Positions 41,733-45,940 of a stretch of DNA of 64,000 nucleotides are shown here, piece after piece. The DNA comes from Geobacillus stearothermophilus ATCC 12980. GTDB lineage: Bacteria; Bacillota; Bacilli; Bacillales; Anoxybacillaceae. Within the stretch, counting starts at the first letter, position 1, and each line of letters begins with the position of its first letter. The position numbers were made by a program, and so were the translations under genes. The stretch spans positions 2,499,501 to 2,563,500 of the forward strand of contig NZ_CP128494.1 of assembly GCF_030369615.1 (NCBI RefSeq). Direction: 5' to 3'. The notes beneath the pieces were generated by a model that was not told where the DNA came from, did not search any database, and worked only from the letters and a program-made list of their open reading frames with translations.

Positions 41733-42912
41733 TTAGCGAAGCAATTGCAATACTCCTTGCGGCTGCTGATTCGCCTGAGCGAGCATCGCTTGTGCAGCTT
41801 GCATTAAGATATTGTTTTTCGTGAATTCCATCATTTCTTTGGCCATCGTGCCACCCGCCCTTTCGGTACGGGACAAGACTACATCTTCACCCTCAGCTTC
41901 ACCTGGTAGGGGCCGGGCGCTTCGGATGAACGAGGACGATGGAAATCCTCTCCACCCTACGGGCTTCATCGCCATAGCACAAGCCGTAGGCGGTATGCCC
42001 TAGTCGTTGAACCTTCTCCACCCTTTCGGGACAGGAGCTTGGCTGCTGATTGCCCAATCCTTTGGCTTTTTCCGCCGTCACGTCTGCCGTTTCCAGCTCC
42101 GTTGTGGCGCCAAAGGCTCTTAGGGCTTCCCAGCAATTCACCCGGTGGTGATCCTAGCCGTTTCCAGCCAGGACGACTGTGCCTGTCGCCGTTTACGCGG
42201 CTAAGGCATAATCGACGTCGCGGATACGGGATTCTGCGGCTGTTAAGTTTTCCGCAGAAGTAGATAAGTTGTTAATTGTGTACTCTAAACGGTTTTGTAA
42301 TGCACCAAGTTTTGAGCGCTCTTGCGATACAGCATTGATCGCAGCATCAATGTTAGCAATCGATGAACTAGCTAGAGAGTTGTTAGCAACCGAAATATTA
42401 GCTGCACCAACTGTTAACGAAGTTGAGTTCATTGTTGCAATCGTCAAGTTAATAATTTGACCGCTATTGGCGCCCACTTGGAAGGTTGCGTTCAACGAAC
42501 CATCAAGCAAGTTTTTCGTGTTGAATTGTGTGGTATTTGAAATACGGTCAATTTCTGAAATTAACTGATTCAACTCTTTTTGGATTTGATCGCGGTCAAT
42601 CGTTGTGTTCGTATCGTTCGCTCCTTGTACCGCTAACTCGCGCATACGTTGAAGGATAGCATGTGTTTCATTTAAAGCTCCTTCCGCTGTTTGGATCAAC
42701 GAGATCGCGTCTTGCGAGTTCTTCGCAGCCATTTCTAGTCCGCGAATTTGGCCTCTCATTTTTTCGGAGATCGCAAGGCCTGCCGCATCGTCACCAGCGC
42801 GATTGATACGAAGACCAGAAGATAGCTTTTCAATGTTTTTTGCCGCCTGCGTGTTGTTGAACGTCAACTGCCGATACGTATTCAACGCCGCGATGTTGTG
42901 GTTGATTCTCAT
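41733..42912 (-). CDS. hag: Flagellin, split by a group I intron
   Basis: Exon 1 is 42211-42912 and exon 2 is 41733-41846; splicing gives 271 residues. N-terminal D0/D1 (MRINHNIAALNTYRQLTFNN, KLSSGLRINRAGDDAAGLAI) and C-terminal D1/D0 (ERSKLGALQNRLEYTINNLS, MAKEMMEFTKNNILMQAAQA, ending LQLLR) are typical. The central region is very short, so surface-exposed Ser/Thr-rich residues (TMNSTSLTVG, NNSLASSSIAN) are the likely glycosylation sites. Unspliced RNA would encode a protein ending DYALAA after residue 234, without the D0 helix needed for assembly. ATG 42912 has a GGAGGAAG site, and a SigD-type promoter lies upstream. Confidence 0.93.
41847..42210 (-). ncRNA. Group I intron in hag
   Basis: A 364-nt insert between codons for DVD and MAKEM. 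Conserved core elements are in order: P-like GAATTGCTGGGAAGCCC (about 42116-42139), Q-like AATCAGCAGCCAAG (42038-42051), R GTTCAACGACTA (42001-42012) and S AAGATGTAGTC (41877-41887). The 5' exon ends in U and a GUCG in the intron can pair with exon CGAU (U-G at the splice site); the last intron base is G. No homing-endonuclease frame. Ends inferred from restored flagellin. Confidence 0.9.
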
Positions 42913-43012
42913 GTTCTCTTCCTCCTTGAAATGATGTTTTCCACGTCCTTGTGGAACGGCGGGGCTAGGGCGAAAGTCGGCCGCCTTTCGCCGCAAACCG
43001 CGCTCACTTTTT

Positions 43013-43097: not shown

Positions 43098-43337
43098 TTA
43101 TGGATGTTTCCATTGTTTCAGCTTGGCGGTCAGTTCGGCGAGCGAGGCTTCGTGTGCTTCGGCGGCGGCACTGTTTTCCGCTTGGATGGCGAGGTACACT
43201 TCTTTGCGGTGAATGTCGATGTGTTTTGGCGCGTTGATGCCAAGCTTTACTTGATCGCCTTGGATGGCGAGGACGGTGATTTCGATGTCATCGCCGATTT
43301 GGATCGCTTCTTTGAGTTTGCGCGTTAAAACAAGCAT
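43098..43337 (-). CDS. csrA: Translational regulator CsrA
   Basis: A 79-residue Csr[40 protein letters not shown] and HRKEVYLAI form the RNA-binding beta dimer; the tail after residue 55 is longer and more Ala-rich than average. In B. subtilis it represses hag translation until FliW sequesters it. The ribosome site AAAGGAGG is intact, but only about 29 bp upstream remain before IS110 copy E, which cuts it off from fliW. Confidence 0.94.
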
Positions 43338-43366: not shown

Positions 43367-44921
43367 TTTTCCGTGAAAATCCCCACCACTTGGTGAGTGC
43401 GGTATACGCTCCTGATCCGTGAGGGTATACTGAAAATGGCCAAAAAAGGCAATAGGAAAGCAGAGGTGCCCGATTTTAGGCATCTCGTATAACCTGTCTG
43501 CCTTTTGGCTAGACTAAATAAGTTGTGGTTGGCGGAACGGCTCTTTGCGGGAGATCATGCAAAAGATGATCACCAACATCCGCCGAGCAATGGCGATGAG
43601 GGCTTTTTTCTTCCCGCACCGGGCCGCCAACGACCAAAACTTTCGGGACAAGGGATGCGTCTTGGATCGAGCTGCTGACCATGCCGCCTCGCATAACGCC
43701 GATCGGAGATGGGGATTGCCTTTTGTCGTGCGCGTGCTCTTTCGCTTTCCGGCGCTTTCATGGTTGCCGGGGGACAATCCAGTCCATGAAGCCGCCCGTT
43801 CCGGCGTTTCAAAGACGCTCATGTCGGTTCCCATCTCGGCGATGATGACGGCGGCGGTTTGTTTTTTCACTCCGGGCATGGTCATCAGCAGGTTCACTTC
43901 CTCGCGATACGGCTCGAGCAGGCGGTCGATGTGTTGGTCGACTTCTTCGATGAGCCGCTCCAATTCCTCAACGTGTTTCCACAAGAGGCGAAGGAGACGG
44001 AGCTCGTGTTCGGTCAAGGTGCCGAGCAGCGAATCGTACACCGCTTGCTTTTTCTTTTTGAGCCTTCCGCGCAGGCATTCATCCAACTCGTCCTTGTCCA
44101 CGTATCCCTTCTCCAGCAGCCGGGCGAGGATGTCTTTTCCGGAAACGCCGAAGAGATCGGAGAGGACCGAGCCGAGTTTGACATTGGAAGACTCGAGCAC
44201 TTTTTGAATCCGGTTTTTCTCCGAAGTCAGCTGTCCGACCCACTTTTTGCGGAGGCGGGTAAAATCCCGCAATTCGCGAATATCCGCTGGGGGGACGAAA
44301 CTTTTTTCAACGAGTCCATGGCGGAGCAGCTTGGCGATCCACTCGGCGTCAGAGACATCGGTTTTTCTTCCCGGGACATTTTTGATCCGCTGCGGATTGG
44401 CCAGTGTCAAGTCGACATAGCCCTCGAGGAAGGCGAAGACCGGTTTCCAATACACGCCGGTGGATTCCATGGCGACATGGGTGACGCCATGTTCTTCGAG
44501 CCACTCAAGCAGGTCGCCAAGTCCCTTCGAGAACGTGGAGAAGGTTTGAATGTCCTTTTGAATGTGTCCATCTTCTTCCCATAGCGCGCAGGCGACGATG
44601 GTTTCGGCATGAACATCCAATCCTGCGCAGCGAGGATAGATGACATCCATGATGAAAATCCTCCTTTTCGATGATCGAGTGCGCAAACAGTGAATCCACG
44701 GGAGACATGCGGCAGTTTTCCGTTCGTCGTCACCTTTCCTCTATCACAGGAAAGGGCGGACAATGGGTGGTGCACCCAGTGGATTCAAACACTTTTCCGT
44801 ACAGGGTCTAAGCCACCATTAAGCATAACGTCCTGTTAAACTGTTTGCGCCTATTCTTCATTATGGGAAGAAAAGGGGGATTTTCATCCCTGGGTGGAGG
44901 GCAAACCATTGCCCATGGATC
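43367..44921 (-). mobile_element. IS110-family element, copy E, between fliW and csrA
   Basis: A 1555-bp intact copy (147-bp 3' region, transposase, 271-bp 5' region). Both host junctions carry GGAAAA: the fliW side reads CGGAAAA next to the leader, and the element's 3' end reads CACGGAAAA next to csrA DNA. No other duplication is seen. Confidence 0.9.
43514..44650 (-). CDS. IS110-family DEDD transposase, copy E
   Basis: 378 residues, the same protein as copy D, with GLDVHAETIVACAL and WTGLSPGNHESAGKRKST both present. It is in the same direction as fliW and csrA, so flagellar read-through transcription will cross it. Start ATG 44650. Confidence 0.93.
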   Translation of the reverse strand: MDVIYPRCAGLDVHAETIVACALWEEDGHIQKDIQTFSTFSKGLGDLLEWLEEHGVTHVAMESTGVYWKPVFAFLEGYVDLTLANPQRIKNVPGRKTDVSDAEWIAKLLRHGLVEKSFVPPADIRELRDFTRLRKKWVGQLTSEKNRIQKVLESSNVKLGSVLSDLFGVSGKDILARLLEKGYVDKDELDECLRGRLKKKKQAVYDSLLGTLTEHELRLLRLLWKHVEELERLIEEVDQHIDRLLEPYREEVNLLMTMPGVKKQTAAVIIAEMGTDMSVFETPERAASWTGLSPGNHESAGKRKSTRTTKGNPHLRSALCEAAWSAARSKTHPLSRKFWSLAARCGKKKALIAIARRMLVIIFCMISRKEPFRQPQLI

Positions 44922-45365: not shown

Positions 45366-45919
45366 TCAAATGACGACGTCAATGTGAAGCGACGGACGCT
45401 GGGCGAGGCGGATCGCCACCTCGCCCGGCATGTAGCGAATGACCGGTGGATGCGTGCGGGCGCGGATGACCGGTTTGCGTGCCTCAAAGCGAATATCCAC
45501 ATCCGCCGGAGTATAGGATATGTGAACGCTGAACGGGGACGGCACCCAGCCGATGTTGAATTCGTACATCGGAGTTTCGCTGTTTTCTTTCGCCTGCTCG
45601 GCGATCGGGTTGCCGCCGTCCTCAATGCGCATGAGCTCGTCGCCTTGGCGAGAGACGCGGGCCAGCCCGTCAAGCCAATCGTTGTATCCTTGTTCAGCAA
45701 ACTTTCGATGCGGCGGAAGATATGTTCTAAGTTCATGTCTTCCCACGCTTTTGTCTGATCGATCGTTAGCTTGGACGGCGTCGTACGGATCGTGAGTCGG
45801 GCCGGAGATTGCTCGATTTCCAACTCGGCAGGCGGCTGTTGGATTTCTAGTTTCGCCGGAACGGTTTCGATGGCGATTTTCGCCATCGTTGACTGCAAGC
45901 GGATCTGCGGCAGCTGCAT
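45366..45919 (-). pseudogene. yviE: yviE (DUF6470 family), single-base frameshift
   Basis: The N-terminal part (MQLPQIRLQSTMAKIAIETV, PAKLEIQQPPAELEIEQSPA) and C-terminal part (FAEQGYNDWLDGLARVSRQG, YEFNIGWVPSPFSVHISYTP, ending LHIDVVI) are in different frames. They would join as RRIE-KFAEQ if the GAAAG at about 45708 had one more A. The intact product would be about 184 residues. yviE lies between flgL and fliW in B. subtilis as well; its function is unknown. Either a real lesion or a base-call error. Confidence 0.85.
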
Positions 45920-45940
45920 CGTCATCTCCCCCTTATCCGC

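Follow-up and report, generated by a model that had tools for sequence, protein, structure and literature searches.

An in-frame YALAA tail at the 5′ end of the flagellin group I intron of Geobacillus stearothermophilus ATCC 12980, a candidate degron for the unspliced product

The interrupted flagellin gene

The window analysed here is a 64-kb stretch (64,000 nucleotides) of contig NZ_CP128494.1 of G. stearothermophilus ATCC 12980. On its minus strand, the flagellin gene hag is divided by a 364-nt group I intron, which lies between the codons for DVD and those for MAKEMMEF (Table 1). The final codon of exon 1 is GAU (…RIRDVD), and the intron opens with UAUGCC and closes with GGCACG. Exon 1 matches Pfam Flagellin_N (1.1e-48) and positions 1–52 of the 86 in Flagellin_C, a span that reduces to about 1–50 because the searched piece included two intron codons, and the two exons make up complementary parts of Flagellin_C. 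The intron matches Rfam family RF00028 with 64.2 bits (cut-off 50; E 5.7e-14; model positions 1–253). RF00028 is the sole RNA family that exceeds its gathering score within the window, and no other match to it was found at E 0.001 or better in the whole 2.86 Mb genome. The helix names given to the Rfam-aligned core segments (P4/P5, P5/P4 with P6, P7/P3 and P7) are those that we presume to apply.

Table 1. Features of the interrupted hag gene, in positions of the window.
Feature	Position	Strand	Basis
hag exon 1, flagellin N-terminal part up to RIRDVD	42211..42918	-	Flagellin_N and Flagellin_C profiles
Group I intron, 364 nt, without recognisable endonuclease gene	41847..42210	-	RF00028; empty sites in 8 relatives
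hag exon 2, MAKEMMEF...VLQLLR-stop, C-terminal D0	41733..41846	-	Pfam Flagellin_C positions 51-86, 3e-11
Tail YALAA with its stop, read on from exon 1 into the intron; putative degron of SsrA type	42193..42210	-	ORF 42193..42996
P1 5′ strand, exon GAU and intron UAUGCC, splice site between 42211 and 42210	42205..42213	-	Pair counts, 60 sequences
P1 3′ strand with internal guide sequence (GGCACA GUC)	42175..42183	-	Pair counts
Core P4/P5 5′ strand	42123..42139	-	Rfam alignment
Core P5/P4 3′ strand and P6	42037..42052	-	Rfam alignment
Core P7 5′ / P3 region AAGGUUCAACGACUA	42001..42015	-	Rfam alignment
Core P7 3′ region UGAAGAUGUAGUC	41877..41889	-	Rfam alignment

Some match to the intron DNA is present in 35 of the 41 genomes of the family. 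Thirty loci were kept (L010-L039), of which 21, the window's own counted, carry the intron at this insertion point (hereafter site 1), and eight (L021, L022, L026 and L035-L039) have an uninterrupted RIRDVD-MAKEMM. The contiguous reading in these eight relatives proves the insertion point. It is very improbable that the intron is dead, with the gene broken and no full-length flagellin made: the core match is full-length, P1 and both exons are intact, and the introns of the closest relatives are 95–97% identical to that of the window.

Three open stretches within the intron (84, 79 and 42 aa) gave no Pfam match at E 0.01, and there is therefore no recognisable endonuclease gene of the kind that a mobile intron would carry inside it. 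A plasmid search returned 15 records, none of them covering 80% of the query, and two additional contig scans returned 0 contigs and 1 contig. No stop codon interrupts the frame of exon 2 across the 3′ third of the intron (41850-41975, minus strand), where an 80-aa ORF has its ATG at 41975. Comparable 3′ openings occur in L011-L015, and the intron part has no Pfam match.

The pairing at the 5′ splice site was counted over 60 distinct sequences among 63 site-1 introns, which were selected for the exon motif together with a P4-like word no more than 120 nt away, duplicates being removed. The 5′ strand of P1 pairs with intron nucleotides 28-36, the exon triplet GAU pairing with intron GUC, and the splice-site U·G is present in 60 of 60. 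Intron positions 1, 3, 4, 5 and 6 are paired in 59, 60, 60, 59 and 58 of the 60 sequences, with two-sided changes at positions 4-6, and position 2 is paired in one sequence only (an A facing C or G). The Rfam alignment sets P1 inside the exon, with its start at 42267; the P1 obtained by comparison appears to be the better supported of the two placements.

A preliminary description of this locus had placed the break in the hag frame after DVD and the restart at MAKEMMEF 364 nt further on, coordinates that proved correct to the base. The group I ribozyme core that it recognised is borne out by the covariance model (RF00028, 64.2 bits), as are the U before the intron and the G at its end by the splice-site pair in all 60 sequences and the terminal GGCACG. 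It had seen no endonuclease gene, in agreement with the three open stretches described above, and the comparison that it proposed with intronless hag alleles yields an exact empty site in eight loci. Its view that the C-terminal D0 segment needs splicing also holds, exon 2 carrying Flagellin_C positions 51-86. Model, structure and comparison together show that the D0 codons of flagellin are interrupted by a group I intron of the self-splicing kind, from which we infer splicing itself.

Two irregularities were observed in the neighbouring genes. An IS110-family transposase gene (43517-44686, minus strand; PF01548 1.8e-29, PF02371 1.3e-26) sits between csrA (43101-43337) and fliW, and therefore interrupts the fliW-csrA neighbourhood known from Bacillus. 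A DUF6470 (YviE-like) gene at 45369-45925 on the minus strand is split over two frames, of which one covers profile positions 1-70 and is fused to that of FliW and the other covers positions 67-178; this is either a frameshift or a sequencing error.

A short coding tail at the start of the intron

The unusual part of the locus, absent from the preliminary description, is the in-frame tail YALAA and its stop. When exon 1 is read onward into the intron, it continues with Tyr-Ala-Leu-Ala-Ala and then a stop, which falls within the P1 hairpin, upstream of the catalytic core. The product of the unspliced ORF is flagellin minus its last 37 residues, with YALAA at its C-terminus. Nineteen of the 21 site-1 introns of the family encode YALAA, one YALVA and one YAFVA. 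Ala-Ala ends 59 of the 63 site-1 tails, that of the window among them, and the four that lack it are YALVA, YAFVA, YALAS and YALTA. Of these 63 introns, which have 39 nucleotide haplotypes of the tail, 38 encode YALAA.

The conservation of the tail follows its codons. Ala is encoded at the penultimate position in 60 of 63 introns, and the last codon is GCN in 62 of 63, with G, T, A and C at its third base in 13, 22, 16 and 11 cases, respectively. Entropies over the three positions of the two Ala codons are 0.12, 0.21 and 1.06 bits and 0.12, 0 and 1.96 bits (60 sequences), and the 12 nt past the stop are variable throughout (0.86-1.92 bits). Pairwise pN/pS values, pooled with no tree, were obtained for 29 distinct five-codon tails. 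The frame of the exon gives 0.32; the two shifted frames give 0.89 and 0.69, values that come from the 11 and 26 of 29 sequences left once those containing stops were removed.

Part of this pattern would be expected of an ordinary group I intron in which YALAA is a by-product of the P1 hairpin and the stop merely bars ribosomes from the core. The tail codons fall within P1 and the hairpin at its distal end, where both sides of pairs have changed, and introns of this type are known to contain in-frame stops (PMC3984707, in the excerpted text). The tail pairs partly within P1, and RNA and peptide constraints therefore overlap; RNA pairing accounts for part of the conservation of the tail. It does not explain the last Ala codon, whose third base takes all four letters after an unchanging GC and is predicted to be unpaired in 54 of 60 folded sequences. 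We regard the by-product account as unlikely, also in view of the reading frames of related endings described below. A separate candidate, a GNRA-loop origin of GCG-UAA at site 1, was rejected because the letter before UAA/UAG takes all four values.

The tail YALAA is identical to the last five residues of the host's own tmRNA tag, which ARAGORN gives as GKQNYALAA. Tags were obtained for 30 of the 33 hosts searched, three further tmRNA genes being found as well, and all 30 end in AA. Tail and tag could be compared at site 1 for 17 other hosts: AA is common to the two in all 17, and the last three residues agree in five (G034, G222, G041, G241 and G353); in most of the remaining hosts the tag ends in LAFAA and the tail is, for example, YAEAA. 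What tails and host tags have in common is thus the terminal Ala-Ala (17/17 in the last two residues, 5/17 in the last three), and the tails do not duplicate the tag of their own host. Strict co-adaptation between the two is unsupported, with agreement in only 5 of 17 hosts.

The window genome encodes ClpX (706.8 bits) and a protein of the NFACT/RqcH type; RqcH is the protein that adds poly-Ala tails. ClpXP reads ssrA tags and, in Bacillus subtilis, poly-Ala tails (PMC8138137, in the excerpted text).

Ala-Ala endings at other sites and a second flagellin intron

Public viral and genome contigs were scanned for core patterns chosen without regard to the tail. For each intron the longest ORF ending near the core was taken, and similar tails were removed. 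These contig scans are samples, and the counts of the first and further sets apply among the matches listed. In the first set, the matches listed comprised 465 introns, 459 of them with candidate ORFs, from which 111 were retained and 61 remained without similar tails; the 111 were type-0 introns with an ORF of at least 100 aa, at least 1.6 times as long as the second longest, and a stop at -60 to +10 of the P4 anchor.

With the core CAGCCAAG..AAGGTTCA, 12 of the 61 unspliced ORFs among the matches listed end in AA-stop vs 0 of 308 control ORFs, which end in the same stretch in other frames (p 1.6e-10). A further five of the 61 listed end in another residue and A, and 44 do not end in A. One of the 12 AA cases (L303) is the flagellin site itself. 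Over 12 choices of threshold, the enrichment among the matches listed has p values from 6e-11 to 1.5e-5. Among the same matches, stops more than 60 nt from the P4 anchor follow AA in 1 of 40 cases. A second core, AGCAGCGAA..AACGTTCA, gave AA in 0 of 22 cases close by; of its more distant stops, 0 of 30 follow AA, as do 2 of 185 in the control frames of that distant group (all among the matches listed). A further scan with CAGCCGAG followed the same steps and was screened against the first set, so that 115 introns were reduced to 46 and then to 29 among the matches listed; AA ends 6 of these 29 vs 2 of 113 controls (p 9.5e-4), several capsid-like introns that look like one site having been counted separately by the filter.

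The codon pair itself keeps to the frame of the exon. Among the matches listed, GCNGCN-stop closes the exon ORF in 12 cases vs 0 out of frame in the first set, and in 6 vs 3 in the second. Combined, 18 are in frame and 3 out, with p 1.1e-6 for at least 18 of 21 at the one third that RNA alone predicts. This count from independent sites also weighs against YALAA as a by-product of P1. An RNA-motif origin of Ala-Ala-stop was rejected because the motif ends the exon ORF in 12/12 cases of the first set and in 6 vs 3 of the second.

A role for Ala-Ala-stop in clean or fast termination, or in parking a ribosome so that the intron can fold, without proteolysis, would fit the place of these stops just before the core: among the matches listed, 11 of the 12 AA-ended stops lie 19-36 nt upstream of the P4 anchor. 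How ribosomes may affect splicing is taken up in excerpts of PMC3984707. Among the matches listed, only 29 of 2509 ordinary ORFs of at least 200 aa on the contigs of the further scan end in AA, which speaks against such a role and against ordinary C-termini as the source of AA. Related tails also end in LVA, QVA and KVA, which we take to be close to ssrA-variant endings. We consider a role confined to termination or ribosome parking improbable.

Exon proteins were scanned for 10 of the 12 AA cases. Matches in PHROGs were to capsid proteins for L189, L246, L384 and L395, to ribonucleotide reductase (RNR) for L310 and to an unnamed family for L300; no PHROGs match was found for L258, L425, L477 and L551, of which L551 has a sub-threshold Pfam match to a crassvirus capsid. 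In L189, L246, L310 and L395, the PHROGs match stops 6-15 residues short of the end of the unspliced ORF.

Another set was based on the covariance model. RF00028 had a match in 94 of 398 Bacilli genomes, and 118 of the places were analysed, the weakest being left out. All 20 site-1 flagellin tails in this set end in AA. At 45 other, non-flagellin places with an ORF of at least 100 aa, which were not de-duplicated and include some endonuclease ORFs, five end in AA and six in another residue and A. The five AA places are in tape-measure proteins (L064, L108, L114 and L147) and RNR (L148). A temperature or growth switch of flagellin output as the chief role of the intron, with the tail incidental, would leave unexplained why introns of phage capsid, tape-measure and RNR genes have these endings too, and we think it doubtful as the main role; the switch is nevertheless compatible with a degron.

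RNR introns of Bacilli (e.g., L146, L148 and L116) also seem to have immediate stops at two sites. At the APTGK site, three of five ORFs stop immediately and the remaining two read KLLAPYIRKNVA and KVIAPYVCKNAA. At the EQGGSR site, 10 of 16 stop immediately. At both sites the stops were taken from ORF ends.

Many Bacilli have another flagellin intron, inserted at MLA^Q, 14 codons before the end (site 2; L012, L014, L021 and others). The window genome has the site-1 intron only, as judged by the RF00028 search of the genome. At site 2, 71 of 73 introns open with codons like QSNQLPQAVLQLLR-stop, which copy the native C-terminus, and exon 3 with the native end, mostly QANQQPQGVLQLLR-stop, follows the intron in 69 of 73. 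An intron lying just past the stop codon was rejected for site 2, given the splice site MLA^Q and the native-like exon 3 in 69 of 73. The intron copy has a pN/pS of 0.19 (63 distinct sequences) and exon 3 one of 0.10 (43); compared with its own exon 3, the intron copy has a pS of 0.79 and a pN of 0.14 (68 pairs). Position 2 is Ser in 60 of 71 intron copies and Ala in 67 of 68 exon 3 copies. Both C-terminal copies look selected as protein, which suggests that the unspliced and the spliced messages are both translated. The two exceptions, QLLVA and QFEQVA, look like disposal tails.

A proposed fate for flagellin from unspliced mRNA, and comparison with known systems

How ribozyme introns are tolerated in highly expressed genes despite coupled transcription and translation is a standing question (PMC3984707, in the excerpted text). 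We consider it probable that the YALAA ending of this group I intron is a cis-encoded C-degron and that ClpXP destroys the truncated flagellin made from unspliced mRNA. A ribosome on the unspliced message would read five intron codons and stop in the P1 hairpin before the core, releasing flagellin without its last 37 residues and with an ending like that of the host tmRNA tag. YALAA would recruit ClpXP, and the truncated flagellin would be destroyed. No defective subunit would then occupy export, FliS/FliW or the filament, and the tail would shield flagellar assembly and the FliW/CsrA circuit from truncated flagellin. With the truncated product removed by ClpXP, slow or failed splicing would as a consequence cost little. 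The translation of the unspliced site-1 message, the recruitment of ClpXP and the degradation of YALAA-ended flagellin are steps that we infer from sequence. Several observations weigh against this account: tail and host tag agree beyond AA in only 5 of 17 hosts, P1 pairing explains some of the tail's conservation, and, among the matches listed, the second core has no AA in 22 cases, 44 of 61 tails of the first set lack a final A and the further scan has the motif out of frame 3 times; in the Bacilli set, AA ends only 5 of the 45 other places.

The Ala-Ala ending recurs in related introns at other sites, and near the very end of flagellin it mostly gives way to a substitute C-terminus. On the best reading, what becomes of a protein made from unspliced mRNA would be set by the first codons of the intron: either destruction, probably by ClpXP, or completion. 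With somewhat less confidence than in the degron at site 1, we favour a class of bacterial and phage group I introns whose 5′ end is translated as a 'fate tail'. Where much of the protein is missing, this tail would act as a ClpXP degron ending in Ala-Ala (often xLAA); where only the last 14 codons are missing (MLA^Q), it would be a working copy of the C-terminus, so that both messages would yield complete flagellin. If this is true, group I introns would be neutral at the protein level through coding and not through splicing alone, and their tolerance would be independent of perfect splicing where the 5′ end encodes a degron or a substitute C-terminus. It would also provide a sequence signature by which coding introns could be found, and a mobile RNA would then harbour a concealed level of protein quality control.

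Substitute C-termini have a reported parallel in fungal mitochondria, where mobile elements studied by Paquin, Lang and co-workers are said to bring a substitute C-terminus, with the resident end displaced after insertion. Site-2 flagellin introns likewise supply a replacement end for the host protein. Unlike in the fungal elements, the intron copy and exon 3 are both kept and conserved.

Flagellin group I introns of G. stearothermophilus and thermophilic Bacillus have been published by Hayakawa and Ishizuka (2009, 2012), as cited in excerpts of PMC3984707, in keeping with the preliminary description. They concern the same gene, the same kind of element and heat-loving bacilli. The intron itself is thus known; the coding tail appears to be new, with a strong statistical case. 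Full-text literature searches, judged by title and the start of the abstract, with preprints and most subscription papers outside their range, showed among the papers listed no description of an intron-encoded bacterial degron or of a comparable tail in group I introns of bacteria or phages. The excerpted review reports the view that an in-frame stop stalls ribosomes and lets the intron fold (PMC3984707). Its introns with an in-frame stop likewise halt translation before the core, but, unlike for the hag intron, no coding tail is described in those excerpts.

The closest likenesses of the tail itself come from outside group I introns. It shares the …ALAA or Ala-Ala C-terminal ending with tmRNA (SsrA) tags and poly-Ala tails (PMC8138137, in the excerpted text). 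Whereas those are added to stalled chains, the tmRNA tag in trans, the hag ending is encoded in cis within the intron and followed by a normal stop. In yeast, protein made from unspliced HAC1 mRNA is removed through a degron that the intron encodes (Di Santo et al., as cited in excerpts of PMC8002603). As in hag, the HAC1 intron encodes a C-terminal tail before an in-frame stop, and the HAC1 protein that carries it is destroyed. Unlike the hag intron, that of HAC1, as described in the same excerpts, is eukaryotic, non-spliceosomal and Ire1-dependent, with a degron of 10 residues and no group I ribozyme (PMC8002603).
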